A DNA stretch of 37,116 bases from positions 64,001 to 101,116 of the IMG/VR virus record IMGVR_UViG_3300045973_000434; one strand, 5' to 3'. Positions 7,682 to 37,114 of this stretch are shown here, piece by piece; the first letter of the stretch is position 1; each line of letters opens with the position of its first letter. Made by a program: the position numbers and the translations under genes. The notes beneath the pieces were generated by a model. It saw only the letters and a program-made list of their open reading frames with translations, had not been told where the DNA came from and searched no databases. Source of the DNA: a virus.

Positions 7682-8713
7682 TTAATCGTCTATTTCAGAC
7701 AATTCTTCAAGCATCTGTTTTTCAAAATCATCCATGATTTCTCGTAGATTTTCTTGTTGAGCTTTCATGTCATCAAACTTTACAATCTTAGCTTTAGCGT
7801 CTTCTTTATCACCAAGTTTCTCTTCTACAGTAGGTGAAAATCCTACAGTTTTTCCAAAATTAGTTTTTACATTTGCAGTAAAACTATTAAAGGATTTAAA
7901 AGATCCGTGGTTATCAAAGTAAACTACTTCAGCAATAGCATCTCGAATAGCAATCTTTATATGATCAACTGAACGTTTCTTAGCTATAAGAAGTTGTTTT
8001 GTTATATCATCAAGATCTAAACGATCACGATAACTTTTAGGTGTCATACTGGTTACCATTGCTAATATAACTGTATCATCCTTCTCATCAAAGTTATATA
8101 CTTGTTCAAATCTTCCAGGTCTATCTGTTAAGAAATCTTTCATACCAGATGTACTGTTAGCTAATGATAAAATTAACATGTTATCCTGACTCATAGCACC
8201 ATCAAGAAACGAAAGTAATTCCGGGTCTTGTAATTGATATGGTTGACATTTTTCAAACTCGTCCATTATCAATACTATAAATCTATTAGGATCTGTTTCT
8301 CTTATTTGTTGTACTAACTTTGAAAGATTGAACTTCCAAAATTCATTTACTATAAGAGCAACTGCATTTTTTTCTTTGACCATCTTCTCAGCAAGTTGCC
8401 CTGCTAAATAGGTCTTTCCTGTGCCTGGGTCACCTAGGAACATTAAACCGAGTTTATTCAAACCCTTAAGTTCCTTACGTGCTTGTTCCATTTCTGGAGT
8501 AATAAAGTCCTCAACATATCGTTCGATTCTTTTAAAAATACCTGCATCAAGTATACTACTGTCTTTATACTTATCAATTTCATTGAAAAATAATGACACT
8601 GTATACATACTCTTCACCATCTCTATCGAGTATAAGCCCGGTTTTAAATTAGGGGATATACCATCAGGAGTTCCATCAATCAGTTTATATTTGTTACCTT
8701 CTCTTAAAAACAT
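7682..8713 (-). CDS. AAA+ ATPase
   Basis: This is a 343-residue single-domain AAA+ ATPase. Walker A is GDPGTGKT (residues 94-101), Walker B is FIVLIMDE (D151, E152), sensor 1 is the Asn of LSLANSTS (N187), and RPGRFEQV (residues 198-205) supplies the arginine-finger region. The N-terminal ~85 residues are a helical lead-in and the last ~60 are charged, so they may be adaptor surfaces. The gene is the last of the leftward block and is preceded by its own terminator-like hairpin at 8741-8770. AAA+ proteins of this size act in phages as remodelling, loading or chaperone motors. No feature here fixes the substrate. Confidence 0.88.
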   Translation of the reverse strand: MFLREGNKYKLIDGTPDGISPNLKPGLYSIEMVKSMYTVSLFFNEIDKYKDSSILDAGIFKRIERYVEDFITPEMEQARKELKGLNKLGLMFLGDPGTGKTYLAGQLAEKMVKEKNAVALIVNEFWKFNLSKLVQQIRETDPNRFIVLIMDEFEKCQPYQLQDPELLSFLDGAMSQDNMLILSLANSTSGMKDFLTDRPGRFEQVYNFDEKDDTVILAMVTSMTPKSYRDRLDLDDITKQLLIAKKRSVDHIKIAIRDAIAEVVYFDNHGSFKSFNSFTANVKTNFGKTVGFSPTVEEKLGDKEDAKAKIVKFDDMKAQQENLREIMDDFEKQMLEELSEIDD

Positions 8714-8740
8714 ATGCTAAATTTTGTTAAATTAAAATAA

Positions 8741-8770
8741 ATGGGGTGGAACCTTATCGGCACACCCCAT
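8741..8770 (-). terminator. Intrinsic terminator-like hairpin
   Basis: An 8-bp stem (ATGGGGTG with CACCCCAT) closes a 14-nt loop. On the - strand it is followed by a T-rich tract. It lies between the coiled-coil/small TM genes and the AAA+ gene. Confidence 0.75.
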
Positions 8771-8814
8771 TCACTGACTAAATACACACAAATCAAAATC
8801 GACGTAGAGGCCAT

Positions 8815-8943
8815 TTATAAGCGTTTTAAGACACTATCTCCTCTACGATATATATTAGCACCAGAAAGGATTAAGATTCCAAGAATCCATCCAATCAGGT
8901 CTCCAATGATTTTTATTCTTTGGGTAGTTGTTTGATATCTCAT
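8815..8943 (-). CDS. Small single-pass membrane protein, overlapping out of frame
   Basis: This 42-residue ORF begins with ATG at 8943 inside the 3' end of the coiled-coil gene, in the +1 frame, and runs 40 nt past that gene's stop. Its middle is a strong hydrophobic helix (IIGDLIGWILGILILSGA) preceded by a polar N-terminus and followed by basic residues (IYRRGDSVLKRL), which predicts one membrane pass with a positive C-terminal flank. In the host gene's own frame the same DNA gives a Trp/Asn-rich tail with no clear pattern, so the membrane frame may be the selected one. It may start independently at 8943, or arise as a +1 frameshift extension that anchors the coiled coil in the membrane. It could be a phage membrane or lysis-related peptide. 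The ORF is short, so confidence is moderate. Confidence 0.5.
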   Translation of the reverse strand: MRYQTTTQRIKIIGDLIGWILGILILSGANIYRRGDSVLKRL

Positions 8944-9685
8944 CAGTCCTTCTAGACTTTTCAATATCTTTTTGTTTAGCTTCAACTAGAGCTTTCTTAT
9001 CAACCTTTAACCAGTTGTAAATAGAACGTTTAAACCAACCTAAATCTTCACTAAAGTCTTTAGCAGTTTCAAGTTCATGTATACGTTCTTTAAGATCGAT
9101 TATTTCTTTCTTACGTTCGTCTTCTACAAAAGCTTCAGATTTGTCTTTCTTAAGATCTTTCAACTCTTTCTGTAAGTCTTCAACTTCTTCATTAAGACCA
9201 TCTATTAAGCTGGTCATATGTTTACGAATCTTATCTTTTGCACGAGCAACGTCGTCTTCTTTCTCTTTACGTTCAAGAACTAAGTCTTTTTCAAGAGTAC
9301 GATTCTTAAATTCTAGGTCTTTTGTTTTTGTTTCAAGATCAGATATTTCAATACCTAATCTCTTTGCTTCGTCCTTACGGATATCACCGATTACAGTTTC
9401 AAAATTACGATAACCAATTATTTCTTCTTTACCAGGTACTGAATCATAAGTTAGATATCCATTTCTGTCATATCTAGGAACAGATTGTGCCTCTTTGTTT
9501 TTTACTACGATTACTTTTTGGTTTTCTTTAACTTCTTCAATTTTAGATTGAAGTGTTTTTATTTGTTCCTGTAATGCACCAATTGTTTGGTCTTTGTCAG
9601 TAACACTTTTCTCAAGGGCAATTATTTCTTTTACTGAAACTTCTGCCATCCCTGCTAATACTGTTGTTGCGCCTTCTACCTTCAT
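8855..9685 (-). CDS. Coiled-coil protein of unknown function
   Basis: This 276-residue protein is dominated by heptad-like coiled coils: about residues 20-65, and about 100-205, rich in Glu/Lys with regular Leu/Ile. A short globular insert lies between them (PRYDRNGYLTYDSVPGKEEIIGY). A Trp-containing segment (LGWFKRSIYNWLKV, about 215-230) resembles an amphipathic membrane-surface helix. The last 20 residues overlap the out-of-frame 42-residue membrane ORF (8815-8943), and a +1 shift would give this protein a C-terminal membrane anchor. The ATG at 9685 lies 4 nt after the stop of the upstream gene, so the two are cotranscribed. I do not recognise the family; a structural or spanin-like role is only a possibility. 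Confidence 0.75.
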   Translation of the reverse strand: MKVEGATTVLAGMAEVSVKEIIALEKSVTDKDQTIGALQEQIKTLQSKIEEVKENQKVIVVKNKEAQSVPRYDRNGYLTYDSVPGKEEIIGYRNFETVIGDIRKDEAKRLGIEISDLETKTKDLEFKNRTLEKDLVLERKEKEDDVARAKDKIRKHMTSLIDGLNEEVEDLQKELKDLKKDKSEAFVEDERKKEIIDLKERIHELETAKDFSEDLGWFKRSIYNWLKVDKKALVEAKQKDIEKSRRTDEISNNYPKNKNHWRPDWMDSWNLNPFWC

Positions 9686-9689
9686 AGTG

Positions 9690-10235
9690 TTATTTACTTA
9701 TTTTGTTTGTGAAAAATGATTTAATGTCAATAGAATTTACTATCTGTTTCTTAACTTCTGCAAAATCTTTGACGGGAAATACTGAGAGTTTTGCGGTCAA
9801 TTCATATTTTAGAGTTTGTGCTCTATGTGCAATTTTATCTATAAATAAGGACTCTTCTATTAACCTTGTTTTTAGTTCATTAACTTCTTGATCTTTCTTC
9901 ATTTCCTGGGCAGTTAGAGCGTTACGATCGCGGGCTATAGCTTTTGCGAGGGCTACTACTTTACTGTCGTGATAAGAACTAGAGATATTTACATTGGGGT
10001 CTAACGTTTTAACCTGTCTGTATAGTTCTACTAGTGTCAAGGATTCCTTAAGCAGGGTATCATGACTTTCTTGTATTTTTATAACTTCTGCATGAGTATC
10101 AAAGTTATCTTTAATCTCGATCACCTTACCTTTAAGTTTCTCTAAATATTCATTAAAACTTAAAGTAAGTTCTGGTAATAACAAGTCTACAAAATGTTGA
10201 ACTTGTGTCTCATTTAATAATTGAATTTTCGGCAT
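9690..10235 (-). CDS. Hypothetical helical protein
   Basis: This 181-residue protein is predicted to be almost all helix, with mixed charge and no Cys pairs, signal peptide or membrane segment. I see no catalytic motif. It lies 4 nt before the coiled-coil gene and follows the intrinsic terminator at 10266-10286, so it begins a small transcription unit of its own with the two downstream genes. The family is not recognised. Confidence 0.7.
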   Translation of the reverse strand: MPKIQLLNETQVQHFVDLLLPELTLSFNEYLEKLKGKVIEIKDNFDTHAEVIKIQESHDTLLKESLTLVELYRQVKTLDPNVNISSSYHDSKVVALAKAIARDRNALTAQEMKKDQEVNELKTRLIEESLFIDKIAHRAQTLKYELTAKLSVFPVKDFAEVKKQIVNSIDIKSFFTNKISK

Positions 10236-10265
10236 TGAAATATAGTGTTTTATTTGGAAATATAA

Positions 10266-10286
10266 AAGGGGCCTTGTGAGCCCCTT
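10266..10286 (-). terminator. Intrinsic terminator
   Basis: A perfect 7-bp stem (AAGGGGC with GCCCCTT) and 7-nt loop are followed on the - strand by TTTTATATTT. It lies between the genes at 10290-10766 and 9690-10235. Confidence 0.85.
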
Positions 10287-10289
10287 ATT

Positions 10290-10766
10290 TTATTCTAGAT
10301 CATCTTCTGTTTCTTTACTTACTATTTTGTAAAGTTCTTTAAAGATGTCAAAACCATATACCTTACGTAGTTTAGTGTCTGTATATAATAGTACATGTAA
10401 TAAAGATTCTTCATTACATTCCCAGAATTTTAATAATTTCTGTCTATATTCTTCACTAATGTGTTCTATACTATTAGAAAGAATGTAAGCATAATCATCT
10501 TTATATTTATCTGGGATATCGTATACAAATACAAAATCTTCGTCGTTTTTATATTGCGCTGTTGGCGCATTAATAGTTCCACGTGGTACATCATTAATAG
10601 ATTTAACTACTAATAATTGTCCGTCATGTTCTGGTCTATAAAAATCAGATATGAAACTATCTATGAAATGGTCTTTTAAAATATTGGTATATGTAATATC
10701 ATCATTGAATATCATCGGCAACATGAACCTTGTGGTATTAGTTTTCATTAGGTTCAGTGGATTCAT
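10290..10766 (-). CDS. Hypothetical protein
   Basis: This is a 158-residue protein. I chose the ATG at 10766, one base past the exonuclease stop, over a start 60 nt further upstream inside that gene, because tight stop-start junctions are typical of this operon. The N-terminus has a hydrophobic/polar mix (TTRFMLPMIF); the rest is rich in Asp, Glu and Tyr, ending in an acidic tail. No signal peptide, membrane helix or known catalytic motif is visible. Its position after the exonuclease gene suggests a DNA-recombination accessory role, but that is inference from context only. Confidence 0.7.
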   Translation of the reverse strand: MNPLNLMKTNTTRFMLPMIFNDDITYTNILKDHFIDSFISDFYRPEHDGQLLVVKSINDVPRGTINAPTAQYKNDEDFVFVYDIPDKYKDDYAYILSNSIEHISEEYRQKLLKFWECNEESLLHVLLYTDTKLRKVYGFDIFKELYKIVSKETEDDLE

Positions 10767-10767
10767 T

Positions 10768-11748
10768 CTATAATTTTTCTGTTGTTTTACCTTCGTAATA
10801 AGCTTGTGTATGGTCCCATTTATCATTCTTAAAATGCCAATCTAACTGAAGCATTAATGGATCAATTTCATTCAATCCCATATTTAAAGTAGTTTCACTA
10901 ACTTCAAATACTTTAACTTCAATTGGATCTTTAGTACCAATTGCTACTATAAAAGTCTCTTTAATGTATTCGTTTATGTCTTTTGTTGTAAGAGTATTTT
11001 TAAAATACCAGTATATAGCCATCCAGTAAAATGCCATTTGTCTATAATATCTATATTCTAAAAACTTATCTTTGAACTCTGCTAAATGACTTGATGTTTT
11101 TAAATCAACAAGAGTTATTTTTTTATTCTTATGATCGATTATTATCCTATCAATCAAAGACTTACACTCAACTCCAGTATAATGAGTCCACTGTATCTCA
11201 AATTCATTACCAATAAACAAGTCTTCTGTATTTCCAAACAATGAGTGATCATCGTTGTACATTAATTCTCTACCTTTTTCGTGTTCCAGTAAAGCTTTTC
11301 TAGATTCGTTTAATTGTAAATGCATTGAGTTTGGTAATATGCTCACATATATAGGAGAAAGTTTGATATATTTTATATAACTATTGAAAGTTTTTGCTAA
11401 TTCTCTTGCTTTTTCAAGTATCTTTTCATCATTTTCTTTAGTAGTATATGCCTTTTTATATGCTGCTACTAATTTAACATCGCTTGTGCCTTTTTTTGCT
11501 CGTGCAAATGTTTCACAAAATTCTTTTTGTTGTGCGCTTTTTGGTTGTTCATAATCAAGAAAGACATAATTCTTGTCGAACTCCTCAGGTTCTAATATAT
11601 ATTGATGTATCTGTTCACCTTTTTCGTAGAAAGATTTTGTTTCTTCTTCTATCGTCTTATCCAACATCAATTTGAAATACTTTGGAGAATTCTGAAACCA
11701 AGACAATGAGGAATTACTTACTTTTTTTACTTTGTAGTATTCCTTCAT
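10768..11748 (-). CDS. PD-(D/E)XK exonuclease, RecE/Cas4-like
   Basis: This 326-residue protein has the layout of phage exonucleases of the RecB/Cas4/RecE type: a first helical motif GEQIHQYIL (H48), then CKSLIDRIIID (D200) and ITLVDLKTSS (D215, K217), which together form the D...DxK metal site. A Tyr-rich helix follows (FLEYRYYRQMAFYW), matching the QxxxY region of these nucleases. It would resect DNA ends for strand annealing or process replicated DNA. It overlaps the resolvase-like gene by 35 nt, and the Sak4-like ATPase and SSB lie 2-3 kb upstream in the same operon, so it probably works in phage recombination. Confidence 0.82.
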   Translation of the reverse strand: MKEYYKVKKVSNSSLSWFQNSPKYFKLMLDKTIEEETKSFYEKGEQIHQYILEPEEFDKNYVFLDYEQPKSAQQKEFCETFARAKKGTSDVKLVAAYKKAYTTKENDEKILEKARELAKTFNSYIKYIKLSPIYVSILPNSMHLQLNESRKALLEHEKGRELMYNDDHSLFGNTEDLFIGNEFEIQWTHYTGVECKSLIDRIIIDHKNKKITLVDLKTSSHLAEFKDKFLEYRYYRQMAFYWMAIYWYFKNTLTTKDINEYIKETFIVAIGTKDPIEVKVFEVSETTLNMGLNEIDPLMLQLDWHFKNDKWDHTQAYYEGKTTEKL

Positions 11749-23558: not shown

Positions 23559-25559
23559 TTATGCTATTTCACACGTATCGTTATTACAATACATTTCAGG
23601 TTTAGAATCTTCACTAATACCATTGAGTTTTAATCCTTTAATTTTTTTCAATATCTTTTTGTATTCTTCTTTTGTTATTTCCTCATATGGCATTTGCTGA
23701 TAAGCAGCTTTTTCCATTTTAGGTAAGAAACTAATACCTTTAAGTTTGTACTGAAAATAATTTAACGCGTGTTTAATTTGGTCTCTTTCTGTTTTATCAA
23801 ATGTGATTGTACATGACACTTGATTATCAGCCCAATGTTCCTGTAAAAATGCAGCTAATGATAGTTGTTCCCACATACTAACTTCTTTAGTAGTACGAAC
23901 ACCTTCTATTGCTACAGGTATTTCTACAACAACTGTATTCTTTGTATCATTTACATCTGGTTCAATTGTATATCCTGCTTCTTTTAAGTAGGGTAATATA
24001 TCAGACATAGCAGATACTCTTATTCTCCTTATATAATAATTACTTTCTGGATAATGCATACCAGGTGTAACACCAGGCAGTAAGGAAACTGTTCCAGAAG
24101 GTTTGATAGATGTGGTTTTTATACTCTTTGGTACAGCAAACCAGTCACTATATATTTCATCGTAATGTTGTATTGTTTGATAGCCATCTTCTAGCCATTG
24201 TCTTAAGGTTTCTATACCTTTAGTATCAACGAATTGGGCTATACCACTTATCGAAGTTCCTATTCTTCGATTACGTAACTGTACTCTATTAGTTTCAACC
24301 CATTGAGTTGTACCTAAAGTTACAGTTTTTGCATACATATAAGCAAATTTTAATGTTCTTAGGAAATCATCTTTGTCTTCATGTCTTGTAGGAAATACTT
24401 CAACTAAACAACACATTTCATATGGTTCAAGACTTTGTTCTAAGCAAGGATTACCTCCTGATACTCTAAAGTCTTTGTTATTATAACCATCTTTGAAACG
24501 TCCATATTCTCGCATGTTTTTTAACCAAGCATAACCAGGTTCACCATTTGATGCAGTTTGTTCTGCAAGTTTGGTATAATCTTGTCCTGCTTCTACGAAA
24601 ACACTATTGTTTGATAACCAACCCCAAGGAGCTCGTTCTGTTTTACTTCCTTTATAAGACTGTGTATCTGTATCCCAACGATAATCTTTAAGTTTTAGGA
24701 ACTCATTACTATTAGGATTACCAAATACTATTTGTGAAGATCGTCTTGCATTACCTGCTACTACACAAACACCTATCATATTCATTATATCAACAATATC
24801 AGTTGCAGTTATTTTCTGACCAATACGTCTATCTAATGTTTCTTTTATATGTTCATGTAATTTCATTAATGGTTCTGGACCAGCTGATTTACCACCAAAT
24901 GTTTTAATAGGAGAACCGTTAGGTCTTATTAATGAATAATCAAAATGTGGTAATGATAAACCTAGAAAATAAGATTCAAGTAGTCTCTTCAAAGAAGCAA
25001 CCCAACCTTCTCTAGTATCTGGTATTTGATTATCAATATTAATTATTGTAACACCTGTTAAATCTAAAGGTTTTTGTATCATTACTTTACCTTCACCTTT
25101 AACATCAAAACCTACACCTACCCCTAACATAGACATGTCCATCATAAACTCAAATGGTTTACTAAGATCAACATCTAAGTGTTCAGTAGAAGTAAATGCA
25201 CAGTTGTTTAATGCTGCAAATAATCCTTTTTCCATTATCAACGGTGTGCCCATTGCCCATAATCCCCTACCAGGTGGTAAGAATTTCATGGTAAACATTC
25301 GGTCATACATTTCTTGAGCAGATTTATAACCATCTTCCTCATTCCATCCTAGACCATTATTTGTTATATGCTTTTTTTGTATTGAATATGTTCCCTCCAC
25401 AACTCTACGAACGGTTTCATACCATTTCTCATTTGTACCATCTTCTTTAATTCTAGAATATGTTCTTAAGTAAACAATGTTACCAAGTCCATTAAATCCA
25501 AAATCAGGTTCAATGTGTTTGTACTTTTCTATAAAACTATCTTTTAATGTAAACTCCAT
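23559..25559 (-). CDS. nrdJ: Adenosylcobalamin-dependent ribonucleoside-triphosphate reductase (class II, monomeric)
   Basis: This 666-residue protein converts NTPs to dNTPs using coenzyme B12. The fingerprint is that of the Lactobacillus leichmannii-type monomeric enzyme: FLPPGRGLWAMGT (93-105), ALNNCAF (C120, disulfide half), SGGNPCLEQSLEPYEMCC (thiyl C372, E374, partner C383 eleven residues on), PSGTVSLLPGVTPGMH, and a C-terminal CNNDTC pair (C658/C663, CX4C) that would re-reduce the active site. All key residues are present. It is about 70 residues shorter than the bacterial enzyme. It makes dNTP supply oxygen-independent but needs host or salvaged B12. It has structured terminators on both sides, so it may be its own transcription unit. 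Confidence 0.93.
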   Translation of the reverse strand: MEFTLKDSFIEKYKHIEPDFGFNGLGNIVYLRTYSRIKEDGTNEKWYETVRRVVEGTYSIQKKHITNNGLGWNEEDGYKSAQEMYDRMFTMKFLPPGRGLWAMGTPLIMEKGLFAALNNCAFTSTEHLDVDLSKPFEFMMDMSMLGVGVGFDVKGEGKVMIQKPLDLTGVTIINIDNQIPDTREGWVASLKRLLESYFLGLSLPHFDYSLIRPNGSPIKTFGGKSAGPEPLMKLHEHIKETLDRRIGQKITATDIVDIMNMIGVCVVAGNARRSSQIVFGNPNSNEFLKLKDYRWDTDTQSYKGSKTERAPWGWLSNNSVFVEAGQDYTKLAEQTASNGEPGYAWLKNMREYGRFKDGYNNKDFRVSGGNPCLEQSLEPYEMCCLVEVFPTRHEDKDDFLRTLKFAYMYAKTVTLGTTQWVETNRVQLRNRRIGTSISGIAQFVDTKGIETLRQWLEDGYQTIQHYDEIYSDWFAVPKSIKTTSIKPSGTVSLLPGVTPGMHYPESNYYIRRIRVSAMSDILPYLKEAGYTIEPDVNDTKNTVVVEIPVAIEGVRTTKEVSMWEQLSLAAFLQEHWADNQVSCTITFDKTERDQIKHALNYFQYKLKGISFLPKMEKAAYQQMPYEEITKEEYKKILKKIKGLKLNGISEDSKPEMYCNNDTCEIA

Positions 25560-26202: not shown

Positions 26203-26721
26203 CTAAATTTTTCCAGTATAATCAAAATTGTCTTTCAAAAGGTTTGTAAGATATTCAATGGCTTCTTTTTGGGAATAACACATTACTTTAGGTTTATTAT
26301 TTCCTTGTAGTATATTTTGTATATTCATCCAATAAACAATTGTCATTGGACCAGAGCCATTCCATTGTCGAGCAGCTTGCTCATATGTCTTACCTTTCGC
26401 AAAGTATAAGAAGACTTCTCTTGACTTTTTCGAATCAAACATATCTTGTAATGTATAATTCGCGCCTGTCAGTCGATTGTAATGTTCTATTCTACACTGC
26501 CTTATTTGAGCTCTTCCATAAGCTTGTTCTCTTTCGTTACATAATGTATCATTTTTACCTGATTCAAAGATTGTAACTGCCTCATATAAGGGATCGTAGA
26601 AGTCTTTGTCTATTCTAACTATTTTTTCACTTTCTTTTATATATCCAGTTGGATACGTAGAAGGAGCGAAAGACAATAGGCTTAGAGACAAAAATAAGAA
26701 CATTATTAGTGTTCTTTTCAT
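26203..26721 (-). CDS. Exported lysozyme/transglycosylase-like enzyme
   Basis: This 172-residue protein has an N-terminal signal peptide (MKRTLIMFLFLSLSLLSFA, then a polar region). The mature part has a lysozyme-fold pattern: a Glu in AVTIFESGKND (catalytic-Glu candidate E53), AYGRAQIRQ, an HYNRLTG helix, and QAARQWNGSGP near residue 125, which matches the substrate-binding WNG segment of SLT-type lytic transglycosylases. It would cleave peptidoglycan for lysis, after Sec export without a separate holin gate. It is preceded by a structured leader and a tRNA-like gene. Two Cys pairs could form disulfides in the periplasm. Confidence 0.75.
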   Translation of the reverse strand: MKRTLIMFLFLSLSLLSFAPSTYPTGYIKESEKIVRIDKDFYDPLYEAVTIFESGKNDTLCNEREQAYGRAQIRQCRIEHYNRLTGANYTLQDMFDSKKSREVFLYFAKGKTYEQAARQWNGSGPMTIVYWMNIQNILQGNNKPKVMCYSQKEAIEYLTNLLKDNFDYTGKI

Positions 26722-26814: not shown

Positions 26815-26839
26815 GATTATTTTTGATTACTGGTTTTGA

Positions 26840-26909
26840 TGTCTAAGAGGGAATCGAACCCCCGTCCTCTACTTCATAAAGTAGCACTCCGCCCCTGAGC
26901 TATTAGACA
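26840..26909 (-). tRNA. tRNA or tRNA-like gene, anticodon arm irregular
   Basis: On the - strand a perfect 7-bp acceptor TGTCTAA/TTAGACA is followed by TA, a D stem GCTC/GAGT, a 5-nt variable loop and a T arm GGGGG-TTCGATT-CCCTC, all at canonical places. The anticodon arm is 16 nt instead of 17 and self-complementary (CTACT...AGTAG). It folds as 5 bp with a 6-nt loop or 4 bp with an 8-nt loop TTTATGAA, so the anticodon cannot be assigned with confidence (TAT and ATG are readings). CCA is not encoded. It may be a functional unusual tRNA or a decaying one. Confidence 0.65.
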
Positions 26910-28643: not shown

Positions 28644-29108
28644 TTAATTTATAATAGTGAACTTTTCTTCGTGCTTACGCAAGAATTTTATTAGAAGAAT
28701 GTTTTCGTTATCATCCAACCGAGTTCTTATAAGTGGAGTAGATCGTGTTATATCCTCGTAATCATACTCCAATTCAACCCATATATTCGTAAGTGGATGT
28801 TCTTTTTTACCCCACAAATGAAAAGGTTCTCTGTCTTTTTTTAATGCCCAATTTTTCTTATAAGGTCTCAAGTAGATAACAGTATCGATCTCACGATCAA
28901 CACCAATACCACCACTTCTTTTTCTATAAAACATAAGGGGAACAGTAATGTTGAATAAACCTAAGATGTTTTTAACCTTAAAAGGCATAGTAACTCGTTG
29001 ATAAACTAGTTTTTCACCTCCAACTCTTGCATCAGTCACAACTCTCCTGCCTTTCATTTCAGGTACATCTTTTTTGATTAAGGTGTAGGTTGTTTTCTTT
29101 TTTATCAT
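28644..29108 (-). CDS. Hypothetical beta-rich protein
   Basis: This is a 154-residue protein. I chose the ATG at 29108, since the upstream in-frame ATG at 29165 adds a Cys/His/Asn-rich tail unlike coding sequence. The body is basic and beta-rich, with repeated Lys/Arg strands (TTYTLIKKDVPEMKGRRVV, YQRVTMPFKVKNILGLF), suggesting a small structural or tail-associated protein, but no family is recognised. It is the first gene after the 2-kb gene-free region. Confidence 0.68.
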   Translation of the reverse strand: MIKKKTTYTLIKKDVPEMKGRRVVTDARVGGEKLVYQRVTMPFKVKNILGLFNITVPLMFYRKRSGGIGVDREIDTVIYLRPYKKNWALKKDREPFHLWGKKEHPLTNIWVELEYDYEDITRSTPLIRTRLDDNENILLIKFLRKHEEKFTIIN

Positions 29109-29183
29109 AATGCATTTGTTTTGGTGATTGAAAGTGTTGAAGCATAGACCCGATTTTGAGTGCATAATTTCGTTATGAAATCG

Positions 29184-31100
29184 TAAACCTATTATTTAAA
29201 CTTGGGTAAATTTGATAATACTCGTAATGCTTTTAGGCAACTTAAGCCTTGCACAGCTTAAGCGTTTACCCCACATGCAACGATTAAGTACACACTGGTA
29301 ATAAACACAGGGGAATCGAGTCTTGATAGCTTCATCTTTTTAGGTTAAATAAGTCTAACCTGGTGTACCGAAATACACGCCAAATAACTTCATTTAATTT
29401 TTGTTGCAACTCTTATATCCGGTTGCAGTCTAGGTATTGTACCTATTTGTAGTGATCAGTTGATAAATTTAAAGTATTGTTTATACTTCTCATAGTCGTG
29501 CTATTGTACCAGATTTCACCCTGGCGTTTACTCCGTCCTCTCATATCTGCTATGTTTGACATTCTCGATAACTTAGAGAAAGGCGGGCTTCGAGGCTAAT
29601 GGAGCGCTTTACAGCGTCTTTTCAACCTTCACATCTTCATATGATTCATATACTTCTTACTATGGCTTAGAATTAAGCGCAAGGCCATCTACGCTCGTTT
29701 ATACCCACCCTGACACCATTTGCATGGTTAGCCCATCAAATGGACTTTATACAGTGTGTTATAAAATCTGTCATGTTAGTTTCTAAGACTTTACGGTCTA
29801 TGTGTTTGTTGTTTGCGGGTTTGACTCGTTGTTGCTCGTTCTCAACTCAATACGTCTACAGACGTTTTCCTCAAAGGCTGTCCAATACTACTCCTCATAT
29901 CGTAAACTCGTTACGTAGTGATTTTGTATGCCACTTTCCGTGTTAATAACTAAACGCTAATACTAAATCGATTATCTGAAATAATATCAATGAGAGTCAG
30001 GGGCAACCTGCTTATCCATGAATTGCTTTTCTAAACGTTTCCGTTATACAATGGGATTTAAACCCATGAAGCCATATACCTTTTTATTACAACCAAGGTC
30101 CCCTACGTGTGAGTAACCATGCCTCGATGCTTTATTTAGTTTTTTAGGCCCCCTATTTACGATAGGGTCTCTTTTGTATCTGTTAGAATATAGATGCCAG
30201 TGCAATACCCTAACCCTTAGAACTATGATATGTTTGTTAGTTTTTAGAAAACTGGCAAAAGCAACAACTTTAATGAGTTTACTACACTTCGTGGTTATTC
30301 CTGTTATTGATTAGTATGCACGGTTGTTTGTTTCCAGTTGTTTCCTGGGACTCGCACGCTATTTCAATATATACCCTAGCCTAGTATTACTAGCTATTTT
30401 ACGTCAATTAACGTGGTCAGGGTTTAGATCCCACTTTTACCGGTGTCTTCCGTAGACACTCCGTAGCCTGATTCGTTGGGTTCTCGTGAATCACACGCCA
30501 CTCCGTTTCACTCTGTTTGTATTATATACCAATTACGGTATTAGGAGAGAGTTTAGGCAATTTGTTGCTCCGTTATCTCACATCTAAAATGTGAACCTCC
30601 GCGATCGTTACCATGGTGTTACGCACGATGCTTAATCGACTTGCCTCCCACTTAACGTGTATCCTAGTACCTAAACCTTTTCATCGATGGCCTTAACAGA
30701 CTTACTTGTTTATTATCCAGGGAATTCCACCCTTTACGCCACTCATTTTGTTTGTAGTAGAACGACTATTGCCTAAATTCATCATTGTCGGCACAGTGTA
30801 CCAAGTTTGCTAATCCAAGCACGTTCTCCATGCATGTTTCGAATCGTGTCGGCATTTAGCATCTGACTCCAGCCTACTGTCTGCTGACATTCTAACTCGA
30901 AGTGAGTGCATCCACAGTCCTATCGGGCGCAATAAACTTCGTTAGACTGCTATGTCTAGAGAGAATGAATAACTTTGCGATGCGATATCGCGGTCACTAT
31001 ATTACTGAGGATCGTCTACCAGTTCCTAAAAGCAATCATTCTATGCTTAAAGTTCCTTAAAGAGTTTGACCTTACGGGGTCTAATTGCAATTCCCAGCAA
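29184..31100 (-). ncRNA. Giant structured noncoding RNA region (new class or GOLLD/ROOL-like)
   Basis: About 1.9 kb without a convincing ORF (longest frames about 60-70 codons, on the opposite strand). Sampled lines run 45-52% GC against roughly a third in the genes. Many hairpins are visible on the - strand: CTTAAGC/GCTTAAG (29241-29262), AGGTTA/TAACCT (29342-29361), TGCAAC/GTTGCA (29405-29427), AGGTA/TACCT (29432-29444), CGCT-GTAA-AGCG with a GNRA loop (29605-29616), CGAT/ATCG (30626-30638), and a perfect 10-bp long-range helix (30768-30777 with 30552-30561). Strand is inferred from flanking genes and the GNRA loop. Phages are known to carry giant ornate RNAs (GOLLD, ROOL) near tRNAs; I cannot confirm membership. 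Exact ends are uncertain and it may hold more than one RNA. Confidence 0.6.
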
Positions 31101-31109
31101 TGTACAAAA

Positions 31110-32690
31110 TCAACTATAATAATAGCGACAAATTTTTCCATCATGTGTTTTCAAAAATGATTCTGTCATTAAAATAACAGTATCAATCTGAATTGGCTGA
31201 TCAAGAGCTTGATTAATCTTCTTACGATAGATTTCCATTAATGATTCGGTGTGAAGGATTCCTAATCCTTTAGCTTCTACGAAATTTATATCTGGATACA
31301 CAAGCAAAATTAGCTTATCCACAGTTCTTTCTTCTTGATCAATAGATCGCCTTAAAAGAATTATAACTTCCTGAATATAGGGAATTGATTTGATTATCCT
31401 TTCTATTTTGTCCAATTGGACAGGAAGTTTGAAGTCGTTGAGTATTATGGCTTTCTTACGGCCATATACAAACAAAACATTTGATTTTGGGTCGGTGACG
31501 CCAATATCTCCTGTTAAATAATTATCTCTGTACCGAACTTCACGTGTGTAACTATCATCACCTACATATCTTTCGAATAAGGTGGTGCCAGAAATTTCTA
31601 ACTCTTCTTCATTAGTAGTATTGAGAAAAATGTTTTGTAGGGCGGTGCCAACTGCAAAAGGCATTCTCTTTACTTTTGTTGAAAAATCGTTTATCGCAAC
31701 TAACTGATTTGTCTCCTGAGAACCATAAGTAGTATAAATTGGAAACTTACCTATCAAAGTTGATAGTATCTCCTCATGAATGGTACTGTTATATACCACA
31801 AGAGCTTCTAACTTCTTACCATAATAACTCTTCATCTTTAGCAGTGCTATTTTCTTAAAGAGCCATTTCATCCAGGTTATCGAAAACAAAAATGAATAAA
31901 CTCGTTTACTATACAAATAGTTAACTTCGTTTCTCCATACACTTTCAATAGAGTTTGTGTCCTCTATAACGACTTCTGCTTGATCTTTAGAACCAACCAG
32001 AATACAACCTTTAACAAATGGTAGTAACACAGTTAAAAAATGAGATTCAGCAAACTCAACATTTGAGTATACTTTATTCATTTCTTTAAACGGTACTGCT
32101 ACTATTGCTTTAGTTAAGAAAGCACCAATAGAACTGTGATGTGATTCAACCCATTTGGGTTCACCATATTCAGTTCCAGAGGTTGCAGTAATTACTGCCC
32201 CATCATCATCTTCATCAAACGTATCTAATATTTTGATGTCTACATTCATGTTTTTCTCTGAACTTACTAAAATTTCAGCAAGAGTTTCATAATTGGTACT
32301 GTTATTACGTTCAAAAATAACACTTAAATCTTCTGTAGAAATTAGTGTTTGAACAAACAACGCTTTACCTAAGTCATCTGATACTAAATCAGGATCAATA
32401 AAGATATGATTTGTGTTGGTTAAGAGTAGGATATGAACAGTTTCTAATTTGTTCATTTTAGGGTGTATAACTAATAAGTTTACACCTTTTAATAAACATG
32501 CAATATAGATGGCGATCCAATTATAGGAGTTTCTACCATATAATGCAATAGTACTATTACTATCCAATTCAAATACATCAAGCACATTATATATTGTAAG
32601 AATCCGTTTAAATAACGTTTTCATAGTAGTGTGCTCAAATACAGGGAGATACCAACAATCTCTTACTGCTTGTAAAATCCGCTTTTTCAT
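31110..32690 (-). CDS. Adenylate-forming (ANL superfamily) enzyme, acyl-CoA synthetase-like
   Basis: This 526-residue protein carries the adenylation motifs in order: an N-terminal NSTIALYGRNSYNWIAIY segment, A3 TATSGTEYGEPKWV (168-181), A5 TTYGSQETN (320-328), A7 YLTGDIGVTD (391-400), A8 YGRKKAIIL (409-417) and a C-terminal A10 THDGKICR with the catalytic Lys (K519). It would activate a carboxylate with ATP to an acyl-AMP and pass it to CoA or another acceptor. The layout is closest to long-chain acyl-CoA synthetases, but the substrate pocket is divergent. No carrier protein is fused or visible next door. Its start overlaps the 126-residue gene by ATGA, so it is coupled to it. Such enzymes are rare in phages, so its substrate is of interest. 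Confidence 0.85.
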   Translation of the reverse strand: MKKRILQAVRDCWYLPVFEHTTMKTLFKRILTIYNVLDVFELDSNSTIALYGRNSYNWIAIYIACLLKGVNLLVIHPKMNKLETVHILLLTNTNHIFIDPDLVSDDLGKALFVQTLISTEDLSVIFERNNSTNYETLAEILVSSEKNMNVDIKILDTFDEDDDGAVITATSGTEYGEPKWVESHHSSIGAFLTKAIVAVPFKEMNKVYSNVEFAESHFLTVLLPFVKGCILVGSKDQAEVVIEDTNSIESVWRNEVNYLYSKRVYSFLFSITWMKWLFKKIALLKMKSYYGKKLEALVVYNSTIHEEILSTLIGKFPIYTTYGSQETNQLVAINDFSTKVKRMPFAVGTALQNIFLNTTNEEELEISGTTLFERYVGDDSYTREVRYRDNYLTGDIGVTDPKSNVLFVYGRKKAIILNDFKLPVQLDKIERIIKSIPYIQEVIILLRRSIDQEERTVDKLILLVYPDINFVEAKGLGILHTESLMEIYRKKINQALDQPIQIDTVILMTESFLKTHDGKICRYYYS

Positions 32691-33067
32691 ATATGAATTC
32701 TTATTAATACATCTCCTGTTGAACTTTGGTAAGCTTCAAAAGACGTATAAGTTTCATCAAGAATTATATGATAAACCAGTGGAATTTTACTTGTTAATTC
32801 TTCAGTGAAATTCTTAAACTTTATGACAATCATTGGATTTTCGATATCCCTTGTCATTGAATCTAATACTTCAATGTTGAATATACCATAAGGATGTGTT
32901 AGGATAAAATCCTGTACATCCTTCATACATTTCTTAATAGCGAGTTGCTTTGAAAAAACAACCTGACCATTATTTTGTTCTAGTGTGAATATCACATCAT
33001 AAAACAAATGCGACAGCAAAGATAATGCTAACTTTGCTACTCTTGGAGTTTCAATTGTACCTTTCAT
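32687..33067 (-). CDS. Hypothetical protein coupled to the adenylate-forming enzyme
   Basis: This 126-residue soluble protein has a helical N-terminus (RVAKLALSLLSHLFYDVIF), then alternating strands (IVIKFKNF, LVYHIILDETYTSF, VLIRIHI). Its stop overlaps the enzyme's ATG (ATGA). No phosphopantetheine-type DSL motif, so it is not an obvious acyl carrier protein. It may be a partner or acceptor of the enzyme. Family not recognised. Confidence 0.68.
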   Translation of the reverse strand: MKGTIETPRVAKLALSLLSHLFYDVIFTLEQNNGQVVFSKQLAIKKCMKDVQDFILTHPYGIFNIEVLDSMTRDIENPMIVIKFKNFTEELTSKIPLVYHIILDETYTSFEAYQSSTGDVLIRIHI

Positions 33068-33072
33068 ATATA

Positions 33073-33354
33073 TTACGTTTTAATTGATTTCAGGTACTCA
33101 TCATAAGGCATTAAACGACTTATCATGACAAGATATGCAGGTACATTATTAACAGTATTTGCATGTGGGTATATAGAATCTTCTTCCATAACCTTACAAA
33201 AAGCAAAGTCCTGTCTTTTATCTTTATGATAACGATGACCTGATAAAAGCATAAGTTTATCATTAAGTTCACCTTTTGATGGTGATGTTAAAACTTTTGT
33301 ACGATGTTTTAACATGGTGTCCCATACTATGGAACCTTTACGAATTTTTCTCAT
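33073..33354 (-). CDS. Hypothetical small basic protein
   Basis: This is a 93-residue protein. I chose the ATG at 33354 because an AAAGGAG Shine-Dalgarno-type sequence lies 10 nt upstream; a TTG nine bases further upstream sits on that sequence. It is basic (MRKIRKGSIVWDTMLKHR) with several His and one Cys in the middle (SGHRYHKDKRQDFAFCKV), not spaced like a known zinc finger. Family not recognised. Confidence 0.65.
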   Translation of the reverse strand: MRKIRKGSIVWDTMLKHRTKVLTSPSKGELNDKLMLLSGHRYHKDKRQDFAFCKVMEEDSIYPHANTVNNVPAYLVMISRLMPYDEYLKSIKT

Positions 33355-33859
33355 TGGGAACAATCTCCTTTTTTGATTTAGTTTGTTCTTTCCTTAGTTC
33401 ATTACTTGCATCAATTCGCTCAAGAAAATGATTGACATGCTTATAAAGCTTTATTTCCCCTTCCTTGACAGATGAACCATCAAAGGTGTCAACATGATCT
33501 CTTAAGAATAATACATGAGTAGCACCTAAAGAATTAGGTTTTCTAAGAAGTACATAACCGTTCCTTATTTCATCAGCTGAAAGCCAATATTTATGTTCCA
33601 TTGTAATACCATGCGCTGCTACAATAGGCTTCATTAATAAAGCCATACTCATTTGTAGTTCGTCTATTGTGTTTTTTATTTCATTTCGCAAATCCTTCAG
33701 TTTATCCTCTGAAGCAAATCGCTTGGAACATTTTAGCATTAACGTATTCGCACTGTCAAATGCTACTAACGTTTTTTTCAACTTAACGACTTCATTAGAA
33801 CGAATTATACAAATCTCGACCACCGATTTTTCTTTTGGATCGTTTGTCTCTTTTTGCAT
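33338..33859 (-). CDS. Hypothetical protein
   Basis: This is a 173-residue protein. ATG at 33859 is preceded by AAAGGA 7-8 nt upstream; an in-frame TTG at 33892 is less likely. The first half contains a helical segment (FASEDKLKDLRNEIKNTIDE) and the second a compact alpha/beta region (EHKYWLSADEIRNGYVLLRK). The C-terminus is Lys/Glu-rich. It overlaps the next gene by 17 nt. Family not recognised. Confidence 0.66.
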   Translation of the reverse strand: MQKETNDPKEKSVVEICIIRSNEVVKLKKTLVAFDSANTLMLKCSKRFASEDKLKDLRNEIKNTIDELQMSMALLMKPIVAAHGITMEHKYWLSADEIRNGYVLLRKPNSLGATHVLFLRDHVDTFDGSSVKEGEIKLYKHVNHFLERIDASNELRKEQTKSKKEIVPNEKNS

Positions 33860-33953
33860 CTCTTTTTCCTTTCTTGTTATTAGTACGTTCAATCTTCTCT
33901 ACTCTTGGAGTAGGTTCGATTTTATCAATTTGATTAAGATTTATCTTTTTCAT
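33795..33953 (-). CDS. Possible small Lys/Arg-rich protein
   Basis: This 52-residue ORF (ATG at 33953) has a very basic core (NNKKGKRDAKRDKRSKRKIGG) and overlaps the start of the 173-residue gene by 65 nt in another frame. It could be a nucleic-acid-binding peptide, or simply an A-rich shadow frame of the leader. It begins directly after the structured terminator at 33961-34072, which favours a real first gene. Low to moderate confidence. Confidence 0.4.
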   Translation of the reverse strand: MKKINLNQIDKIEPTPRVEKIERTNNKKGKRDAKRDKRSKRKIGGRDLYNSF

Positions 33954-34093: not shown

Positions 34094-37000
34094 TTATGCT
34101 TCAACAAGCTCAGGTTCTTCAACCACTACAGGCTCTTTCTTGAACTTACCGATCTTTTCTTTTACGTTATTAATCATGCTATGAATCTCTTTGTCAGGCA
34201 TTTTACCTACCTGGCGTGTGTGAGATCCATTACCTGTTTTAATAGCGGTAAGGATAAGATTTCTCAGTTCTTTGCTATCTTCCTGCTTCTGCAAAATAGC
34301 AGAAATTGATCTTTTTAAAGCTTTACCATCTTTGGCAGACTGTAGAGTTTTATAATCAGGATCATCGGGAATAACAATTGCATCAACCACTTCTTCAGCT
34401 TTAGCTTCTTCTTCTTCTGAAGTTTCAACGGTATCATTTGCAGGTAATATGGTTTTGTTAAACCACATAGTTATTTGTTCCGGCGTCCAATCTTTTGACT
34501 CACCTTCCAATGTTGGCATAATAATAAGACACATTGATAATGCCTCATTAAATTTACTTGGAGTAGCGGTGTTCATTTCCACAGCCATGTTATAGACTTC
34601 ATCCATTGTTTTGAAGTTCTTTATGGTTTCCCACAAAGAAGGATCAACTGACTGGATATCGATTTTTTCAAAAACCTGATGTTCTGCATCAATAGTTTCA
34701 GGTACGATTTCGTCAGCAGGTGTTTCAACAACATCTTCCACAACAGTGGTTTCAGTTGTAACTTCTGCTTTCTTATCGGCTTCAAATTCTATTTCAGGAG
34801 ATGCTTTACGAGCAGCGTCCTGTAATATTTTCCGTTCCTTGCGTTCTTTGAACATTTCCGGGTTAGAGACTTTAATAATCTCATCAGCAATATTTATAAC
34901 CTGTTCACCAACAGTAACTTCACCTTTTCTTTCAAGAACTATGCCATTACGGCCATAAAGTTCACGTAATTCTTTTACAAGATTTATAAAGGCAACATTG
35001 GCTTCTTTGGAATGTTTTGCAACAATTTCATGTACCTGTTCAACAGTCAATTTAGATCCGGCTACAGGCTGTTCCCCAACAACTTTTGTTTCCTTTTCGG
35101 ATTTGACTTCTTTATCGGCAGGTATTGGTAATTTCTTACCAAATGTTTTGTTTGCAAAATTAATAATTGCATCAAGTGTGGTATATTCACCACCAACCTG
35201 TTGTTCTTTTAACTTACGTTTAAACAGATTTGTATATAACCAGGATATAAATGTAGCATCATCAGTTCCTTTGCTAAGTAACTCATGTCCCTTTGTTTTC
35301 AACTCTTTCATTGAATTAACTAAAGGAATATTTGCTTTAATTTTTTCCTGTGCTATATATTGCTCTGCTACCCAATCTTTGAAAGATTGTTCGCTTGTGA
35401 TTTTAACAGTAGTTTTGCTACCCTTATCATCAGCAGGATCGGTCATTGTTTTCCAGGTGTTGTTTTCACCTTTTACCAGGTCAATATTTGCTTTAATAAA
35501 ATCAACCTGTGGAACTGAATTTTTGAATGCAGTTTCAGCAAGTAAAAGCATGTTCTTTAACGAGGTGTTGTTTTCAACAACAGTTATTTCTTTTTTATCT
35601 TCTTCTTTCGGAGTTTCTTTGGCAACTATTTTCTTTGATACTTCATCAAAAATAGTTTTAATCCAGCTCAGTAAAGCTTCCTTTTTACCAAAGGTTAAAG
35701 GAATATTCTTTTCACCGTTCTGAATCTTTTTACCAACTAAACCAAGAATTTCAGGATGACCCTGTGCATCAACAAGTATGCCACCATTTTCAATAATAGT
35801 AGCAAGTAACATCTTGATTTCTGATACATCAATTTTATCATCCACAACATTGAGGATTGGTTTTAAGTCCGGGTCAACACTTGGAGCAGCAGTTTTATGT
35901 ACAGAATATACTCTTTCAAGTAAATCCTTTGCATGTAACTTTGTATAAATACTGGTAGCATCCTTATTGTTAGGATCTTTACCAAGTACTTTCTTATACA
36001 AAATACCTTCTTCAAGAAGGCCAGCTACTTCATCCAATGTTTTATCGTTTGCAACCAATTCTTTTATCCTTGTATTTAACTGTTCAAGTGATATACCTGA
36101 TATAGTTAAAGCTTCAGGATTGATCTCATCTTTTGTTTTTAAATACAGAAAATGATTTACAAGAATATCCTTCATTGTTGCTTCTCTCCATGCTTTAACT
36201 GATTTCTCAGTATATGCACGGTGAGCAAAGAAAACTTTACAGAATTTGTCAGCATCACTGAATAGTTTTGCTAATTCTGCTTCGGGCAATGCGGTATTAA
36301 CATGTCCTTCTGCTATTCTTCTCGATATAGCAGTAAGCATGTTATTCTCAGCTTCCAAAGTATTACCCATACTTAGGTACTGATTGAGTATTTCTCTTCT
36401 TGACTGATAATCACCATGACCTTCAATTGAAGCAGGGATGATAAAGTTCAGAAGACGTAAATTTTCAAGTTCTGTTCCTGTTAAACCGTTGGCGGCAACA
36501 TTCTCATCCTTTACTTCTTTTGTTTCTTCAACTTTAGTATCAACCGGTGCATTCTCTTTCTTGTCAAGTTTCTCATCAGTAAGAGTATTCTGAATATCCT
36601 TTAACCAGCTTTTAACTTTAGCTTCAGACCATTTATCAGGAGTTTGTTTCTCTTTCTTAGGTATATAATTACCTACTGATAAATACTGAGTAGCCATAAG
36701 TTCAGCTGAATCAAAACGACCTTTTTTCATCAAGCTTCTGACTGCTTTTGATAAATCAGAAATCTTAGGTGTTTCAACCTCAATCTGTGTGTCTGCATCA
36801 ACGATGGAGATTACAGGTGCATCTTCTTTGGTAGCTTCAATGACAGCTTCTTCAACTTTACTCTCAGGACTTGCATTAGCGGCAACATCACCAAGAACAG
36901 TTTCAATAGAAGTATCAGCTTTAAAGTTAGCATCTAAATAAGCAGTAGCATCCAAGGAGTAAGCATCCATTGTAAGTGTAAGCATATGCTGTTGTAATGC

Positions 37001-37114
37001 TTCGGCCTTACGAACTTCAATCTCACAAAGTTGAATCACTTCTGCACTTGCACCCTGTTTTTTCGCTGCCCAGCGAGCTGCATATTCTGCAGCTTTACTG
37101 GCAACATCCATCAT
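34094..37114 (-). CDS. Large acidic repeat protein, may be 5'-partial
   Basis: 1006 residues from an ATG two bases inside the window edge; the frame may extend further. The N-terminus is Ala-rich and helical (SKAAEYAARWAAKKQG), followed by acidic, Val/Glu/Thr-rich linkers (about 85-115, 185-210, 760-800, 900-920) and a PVVVEEPELVEA tail. At least six helical modules share a short Trp-centred motif: KWSEAKVKSWLKDI (161-174), YTEKSVKAWREATM (301-314), EALLSWIKTIFDEV, QSFKDWVAEQY, ATFISWLYTNLF, WTPEQITMWFNKTI. This repeat pattern suggests a scaffold or array of protein-binding modules. No enzyme motif. Its GC is a little higher and its strand sense is the same as the block's other genes. Confidence 0.78.
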   Translation of the reverse strand: MMDVASKAAEYAARWAAKKQGASAEVIQLCEIEVRKAEALQQHMLTLTMDAYSLDATAYLDANFKADTSIETVLGDVAANASPESKVEEAVIEATKEDAPVISIVDADTQIEVETPKISDLSKAVRSLMKKGRFDSAELMATQYLSVGNYIPKKEKQTPDKWSEAKVKSWLKDIQNTLTDEKLDKKENAPVDTKVEETKEVKDENVAANGLTGTELENLRLLNFIIPASIEGHGDYQSRREILNQYLSMGNTLEAENNMLTAISRRIAEGHVNTALPEAELAKLFSDADKFCKVFFAHRAYTEKSVKAWREATMKDILVNHFLYLKTKDEINPEALTISGISLEQLNTRIKELVANDKTLDEVAGLLEEGILYKKVLGKDPNNKDATSIYTKLHAKDLLERVYSVHKTAAPSVDPDLKPILNVVDDKIDVSEIKMLLATIIENGGILVDAQGHPEILGLVGKKIQNGEKNIPLTFGKKEALLSWIKTIFDEVSKKIVAKETPKEEDKKEITVVENNTSLKNMLLLAETAFKNSVPQVDFIKANIDLVKGENNTWKTMTDPADDKGSKTTVKITSEQSFKDWVAEQYIAQEKIKANIPLVNSMKELKTKGHELLSKGTDDATFISWLYTNLFKRKLKEQQVGGEYTTLDAIINFANKTFGKKLPIPADKEVKSEKETKVVGEQPVAGSKLTVEQVHEIVAKHSKEANVAFINLVKELRELYGRNGIVLERKGEVTVGEQVINIADEIIKVSNPEMFKERKERKILQDAARKASPEIEFEADKKAEVTTETTVVEDVVETPADEIVPETIDAEHQVFEKIDIQSVDPSLWETIKNFKTMDEVYNMAVEMNTATPSKFNEALSMCLIIMPTLEGESKDWTPEQITMWFNKTILPANDTVETSEEEEAKAEEVVDAIVIPDDPDYKTLQSAKDGKALKRSISAILQKQEDSKELRNLILTAIKTGNGSHTRQVGKMPDKEIHSMINNVKEKIGKFKKEPVVVEEPELVEA

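Follow-up and report, generated by a model that had tools for sequence, protein, structure and literature searches.

A remodelled adenylate-forming protein encoded beside a probable giant structured RNA in a crAss-like phage

The window, i.e., the whole stretch of DNA that was analysed, comprises 37,116 nucleotides and corresponds to bases 64001-101116 of a virus record of 101,116 bases (IMGVR_UViG_3300045973_000434). Its minus strand carries the gene of an adenylate-forming protein of the ANL fold, a small partner gene, several further ORFs and a long non-coding region which probably is a very large structured RNA (Table 1). The range 31110-33354 was described preliminarily as an enzyme gene with one coupled partner; it includes a third small ORF at 33073-33354 (its TTG-started version extends to 33363).

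Table 1. Features of the locus in window coordinates
Feature	Position	Strand	Remarks
ANL-fold protein, 526 aa	31110..32690	-	ATG start; ORF, PF00501, tree, model, fold match
Partner gene, 126 aa	32687..33067	-	ATGA overlap with the ANL start; conserved in L001 and L008
93-aa ORF of the ANL gene block	33073..33354	-	96 aa if the TTG at 33363 is used; no family
184-aa ORF of the ANL gene block	33338..33892	-	no family, no match in the phage collection
Probable very large structured RNA, non-coding, 1,944 bases	29166..31109	-	directly 3' of the ANL gene
R1, best conserved module of the probable RNA	29667..29798	-	covariance model; 132 bases
T-arm-like hairpin within the probable RNA	30051..30067	-	5-bp stem, 7-base loop
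173-aa ORF after the RNA	28644..29165	-	start probably nearer 29110; no family; conserved in L001 and L008

The same arrangement exists in two other viral contigs, L001 (IMGVR_UViG_3300020171_000085, ANL gene at 10001-11548) and L008 (IMGVR_UViG_3300002220_000060, ANL gene at 8381-9955). Gene pair, gene order and neighbours are preserved in all three genomes, and so is the four-base ATGA overlap by which the 126-aa ORF ends in the start codon of the ANL gene. This agrees with the translational coupling claimed earlier, yet it is an ordinary property here, as 11 of the 30 adjacent gene pairs in the minus-strand block overlap. The 93-aa ORF is 44-48% identical in L001 and L008. The large terminase subunits (TerL) of the window and of the L008 contig share 81% identity; in the L001 contig, a record of 34.7 kb, no TerL was found.

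Three proteins of the record, namely TerL, portal and major head protein, have matches among the crAss-like PHROGs (phrog_6681, phrog_6547 and phrog_11589), which mark Crassvirales. The record's TerL has matches in 158 of 50,697 phage records, and the best one is from the crAss-like Suoliviridae (cr118_1, Besingivirus; 57%). Because of these three proteins the source virus is assigned as a crAss-like phage, near or in Suoliviridae, and the enzyme gene is phage-borne as originally stated.

Outside of the three genomes, eleven relatives were searched whole: nine whose records assign them to Crassvirales, together with Dulem virus 42 and Flavobacterium phage Fpv3. At E ≤ 1, no match to PF00501 or to the partner turned up in any of them. 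Further DNA-pattern and protein scans of viral contigs retrieved the same two contigs only, and one DNA pattern scanned across genome contigs gave no match; these scans used short exact or degenerate patterns, which distant relatives may escape. The claim that such enzymes are unusual in phages is supported, although there are precedents. BFVD contributes six viral matches to the ANL fold at E ≤ 0.001, and four of these carry names of ANL-type proteins from uncultured Caudovirales phages; acyl-CoA synthetase genes have also been reported from three viral contigs (PMC10401857). The BFVD proteins (A0A6J5L563, A0A6J7WHT9 and others, including one of Hyperionvirus) share viral origin and the ANL fold with the protein reported here, but with at most 14% identity, and as far as tested they stand outside of this phage clade.

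The ANL proteins of the three phages are pairwise 66, 59, and 61% identical, with dN/dS values of 0.26, 0.19, and 0.22; for the partner, identity amounts to 60-70% and dN/dS to 0.06-0.42. All of these ratios are rough because dS is nearly saturated. The low dN/dS of the ANL gene together with its conservation in two other contigs indicates that it is kept by selection, and the alternative of a decaying or strain-specific gene, which the preliminary description had considered, is rejected on these grounds.

That the protein belongs to the adenylate-forming family is borne out by PF00501 (AMP-binding), which it matches with 51.8 bits (cut-off 29.9; E 7.3e-14); the proteins from L001 and L008 also exceed the cut-off. 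A PHROG search with the protein gave no match, nor did a PADLOC search for defence genes. Of the roles first suggested, i.e., membrane change, DNA or protein modification and defence, none gained support from the analysis. The structure prediction that had been suggested was carried out with AlphaFold2 on an alignment of 34 rows. It yielded a model with pLDDT 82.9 and pTM 0.77, in which the ANL fold extends over the whole chain (1-526). The lowest confidence is at an insertion in the P-loop, residues 173-176. VIA-align gives Z scores of about 36 to several ANL enzymes, and the top structures are tied, i.e., FACL13 (N-terminal domain), feruloyl-CoA synthetase, the amide synthetase McbA and MenE. 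A fold match of this kind does not by itself choose a substrate. The profile of o-succinylbenzoate-CoA ligase (MenE, TIGR01923) is hit with 71.5 bits, below its cut-off of 330.15.

A different picture emerges when the motifs are examined. The alignment comprises the three phage proteins and 31 bacterial relatives. T170, S171, G172, T173, K179, E326, G394, D395, G410, and R411 are invariant in all 34 rows. The phages have preserved the SGT/K of the P-loop, the A5 Glu (E326), the A7 Asp (D395), the A8 Arg (R411) and the A10 Lys. The latter, K519, is present in all three phages, whereas the bacterial relatives frequently have S or N in this column; the argument from A10 therefore leans on the general ANL pattern and not on this clade. 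In PMC4667280 the A7 Asp and the A10 Lys are described as invariant in adenylating enzymes.

Much of the remainder has changed. The 31 bacteria have 112 columns with a conservation of at least 90%; 41 of these are kept in the phages and 71 are changed, and 44 of the changed columns have one common state in all three phages. In each phage protein the P-loop is one residue longer (SGT-E-[YN]-G). Pro and His of A4 are lost (P212E and H215E/D), the adenine loop GGA300-302 has become YNS, and A5 carries T325Q. About 14 residues between A4 and A5 are deleted in common. In the A8 region Y425Q is found, and G421K replaces by Lys a Gly which in other adenylating enzymes contacts pantetheine, according to PMC4667280. 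On account of the extra residue, none of the phage proteins matches the AMP-binding signature in A3, a PROSITE-type pattern, while 25 of the 31 bacterial relatives do. Since six true bacterial relatives miss it as well, the signature is no strict criterion.

The preliminary description had all ANL motifs intact. This is correct for the catalytic positions listed above and does not extend to the pocket. Degenerate motifs in homologues, which had been named as a possible objection, are encountered in part: pocket motifs are altered, but the three phages, although divergent, show identical alterations, and the gene is under purifying selection. For these two reasons the motif pattern, as read from the alignment, is a coordinated remodelling; it is neither an intact set nor decay.

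Where did the protein come from? A scan of cellular genomes, one per species for 84,980 species, found at least 380 stretches encoding relatives, of which 80 were kept. These are 22-26% identical and mostly from Bacteroidota and Cloacimonadota, a list biased toward these phyla because the scan patterns were built from an alignment already holding such proteins. A tree of 58 rows was calculated from a subset, 35 of the 80 relatives and 20 of 27 PF00501 loci, the latter being ANL proteins from three Bacteroidota genomes. The three phage proteins form one clade (support 100/100), nested inside a clade of acyl-CoA synthetases (LACS) of the Bacteroidota/Cloacimonadota type (99/99, 42 rows). The stem of the phage clade is very long, 3.97 changes per site, and its exact attachment point is accordingly unsure. 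Among 198 genomes from one phylum, that around a Mangrovibacterium genome, the best profile match reached 116 bits, and thus no close cellular source was seen. The phage protein would be derived from acyl-CoA synthetases found in Bacteroidota and allied phyla, or would have an ancestor in common with them.

Four records of the phage collection that match the ANL protein, MT836834 and three whose neighbouring ORFs were examined, were rejected as phage relatives. The three examined records (MT835586, MT836920, and MT835965) are filed as 'Bacteriophage sp.' and look like pieces of Bacteroidota chromosomes: a reading of the translations suggests as neighbours glucose-6-phosphate and 6-phosphogluconate dehydrogenases, a GDP-mannose dehydratase, a TonB-type receptor, and tRNA-modifying and glycosidase-type proteins.

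With LACS of this type (NF004837/PRK06187-like) the phage protein shares the fold, the order of motifs, the C-terminal tail KT....I.R[YF].Y, the P-loop SGT/K, the A5 Glu, the A7 Asp and the A8 Arg. Such kinship, the preserved catalytic Asp, Glu, Arg and Lys, and the viral ACSL genes reported in PMC10401857 would suit an ordinary auxiliary metabolic gene, i.e., a functional long- or medium-chain acyl-CoA synthetase of host origin which supplies the lipid metabolism of the host cell with fatty acids during infection. We regard this as unlikely. Even the nearest bacteria among the matches listed do not exceed the identity range given above, pocket, adenine loop and A8 Gly have all been replaced, and the stretch between A4 and A5 is shortened. 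The score for NF004837, a subfamily of long-chain acyl-CoA synthetases, is 41.5 bits against a cut-off of 476; four of four bacterial relatives tested score 239-264 bits, well above the phage protein but likewise below the cut-off. We consider the gene to be probably a repurposed one.

The losses may be taken further. Without the A4 His, the A5 Thr, the GGA adenine loop and the A8 Gly, with 71 conserved columns changed and with an additional P-loop residue, the protein might be a catalytically dead ANL fold which serves as a binding or regulatory protein, e.g., by sequestering nucleotide or acyl-AMP or by binding acyl-CoA synthetases or carrier proteins of the host. As the extra residue coincides with the site of lowest model confidence, ATP binding itself could be impaired. 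Against this view, all three phages agree in SGT/K, the A5 Glu, A7 Asp, A8 Arg and A10 Lys, at an overall identity of about 60%. A dead protein appears rather improbable, although by no means far-fetched. The earlier statement that the enzyme is probably active is weakened, since A3, A4, A5, A8 and the adenine loop have been remodelled in a consistent manner; adenylation as such remains plausible.

We tentatively favour, at somewhat less than even chances, a remodelled adenylate-forming enzyme which uses an acid other than a long-chain fatty acid and in which transfer to CoA is altered or lost. Because the contacts to ATP and Mg and the A10 lysine are kept, an acyl-adenylate would most likely still be made. 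A new set of residues, conserved in the three phages, has taken the place of acyl pocket, adenine loop and A8 glycine, and this suggests that a different small carboxylic acid is activated. The acyl group may then be transferred to something other than CoA, or its transfer to CoA may have been modified. In working principle this would resemble FadD32-like FAAL and the amide bond synthetase McbA, whose acyl-AMP is delivered to acceptors different from free CoA. One of the top structural matches is indeed McbA, but beyond the superfamily no sequence kinship with FAAL or McbA was seen, and, as stated in PMC4667280, FadD32 keeps the A8 Gly, unlike the phage enzyme.

The 126-aa protein would be made together with the enzyme and is likely to be a folding partner, a regulator or the acceptor. 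It was described as unknown at the outset, and this characterization stands: neither a family nor a match in the phage collection was found. A model from three rows (pLDDT 69.7) predicts two helices followed by four strands; none of its fold matches is convincing (E 0.33 for the best by Foldseek, Z 6.5 for the best by VIA). Two candidates were dismissed. In acyl and peptidyl carrier proteins the phosphopantetheine is attached to a Ser in a DS[LM] motif; the window, L001 and L008 have LDSM, LDAF and LDSL, i.e., L001 lacks the Ser. MbtH-like proteins, which are likewise small and encoded beside an adenylating enzyme, have a signature with conserved Trp residues; the phage partner has 126 aa, begins with helices, and possesses no Trp in any of the three sequences.

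We are dealing with a viral ANL enzyme in which the loops of the active site were rewritten together and then held by selection. With this locus it can be tested directly to what extent the ANL scaffold tolerates a departure from CoA chemistry, and what advantage a crAss-like phage draws from the activation of a carboxylic acid.

What surprises most at this locus is the probable RNA, which is situated outside of the range 31110-33354 and whose link to the enzyme is adjacency only. The gap between the ANL gene and the next ORF measures 1,944 bases in the window, 1,685 in L001 (11549-13233) and 1,673 in L008 (9956-11628). In all three genomes it follows immediately upon the 3' end of the ANL gene, with the same orientation; it has no long open frames and is 65-67% identical between the phages. 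A protein-coding region in which TAG is read as sense was considered and rejected: stop-free runs are short, and strand and frame differ between genomes (the L001 stretch was read to a later start in this analysis). A group II intron was likewise discarded, given that there is no Rfam match and the flanking genes are intact.

A consensus fold of the three sequences, which has to be taken as a draft, contains 19 clean helices of at least 4 pairs, among them 8 with at least 2 and 4 with at least 3 compensatory pairs. The corresponding numbers are 5, 2, and 0 for the ANL gene, 6, 0, and 0 for the downstream coding block, and 10, 3, and 1 for the opposite strand of the RNA. In 25 column shuffles at most one helix each appeared in the two compensatory classes. 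Altogether 67 compensatory pairs were observed, compared to 21-36 in a separate set of 20 shuffles. The folding energy per column, -0.113, is only little below those of the coding controls (-0.099 and -0.087), and the antisense strand scores as well (-0.097); the case for an RNA therefore is carried by the clean covarying helices and not by energy. On this comparative basis positions 29166-31109 are predicted to be, probably, a very large structured RNA of 1.7-1.9 kb.

A search of 29000-31200 against Rfam, with GOLLD, ROOL and other large RNAs among its families, yielded nothing at E ≤ 1, and blastn of the region against phage records had no match either. The R1 module was found only in the three phages; in the 11 relatives there was no convincing match, two weak ones (E 0.26 and 0.78) being taken as chance. 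GOLLD and ROOL are giant phage RNAs whose functions are unknown and which often are near tRNA genes, as reported in PMC12286853. The RNA of this locus resembles them as a phage RNA which is very large and highly structured; it differs in its lack of an Rfam match and in size, 1.7-1.9 kb versus more than 800 nt given for GOLLD in the same paper. If confirmed, a very large class would be added to the short list of giant structured phage RNAs.

Could enzyme and RNA constitute one system? A repurposed acyl-CoA synthetase might bind the RNA or load its acyl-adenylate onto it outside of translation, or the RNA might scaffold the enzyme. The position of the RNA behind the ANL gene in three of three genomes is compatible with this idea, as is the absence of ANL gene, partner and RNA alike from the 11 relatives searched. 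Further, the hairpin at 30051-30067 resembles the T-arm of a tRNA, and its stem covaries in the three phages (ATGGG/CCCAT, GTGAG/CTCAC, GTGGG/CCCAC). Yet large RNAs commonly contain T-loop motifs, adjacency says little where synteny extends over the whole neighbourhood of the three phages, and no RNA-binding feature was recognised. We therefore consider a two-part system to be very improbable; if true, the RNA would count as one of the largest structured non-coding RNAs in phages.

Several other genes of these genomes deserve mention. A 1006-aa protein is encoded at 34094-37114 (-) of the window; its counterparts have 985 aa in L001 and 857 aa in L008, and it has no significant Pfam or PHROG match. 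A 172-aa protein at 26203-26721 (-), conserved in L001 and L008, has no significant family match; by eye it displays a signal-like start and a lysozyme-like central stretch. A tRNA-like gene occupies the same place in the three phages (window 26838-26909 (-), L001:15615-15687, L008:13911-13983) and has a conserved AT-rich 3' flank; its anticodon is Lys(ttt) in L001, Val(aac) in L008 and unresolved in the window. Finally, a B12-type (class II) ribonucleotide reductase is located at 23559-25559 (-), and its best matches in the phage collection are actinobacterial (Actinomycetia phage DSL-LC01, 47%); Maribacter phage Panino, a phage of Bacteroidota, matches with 35%.
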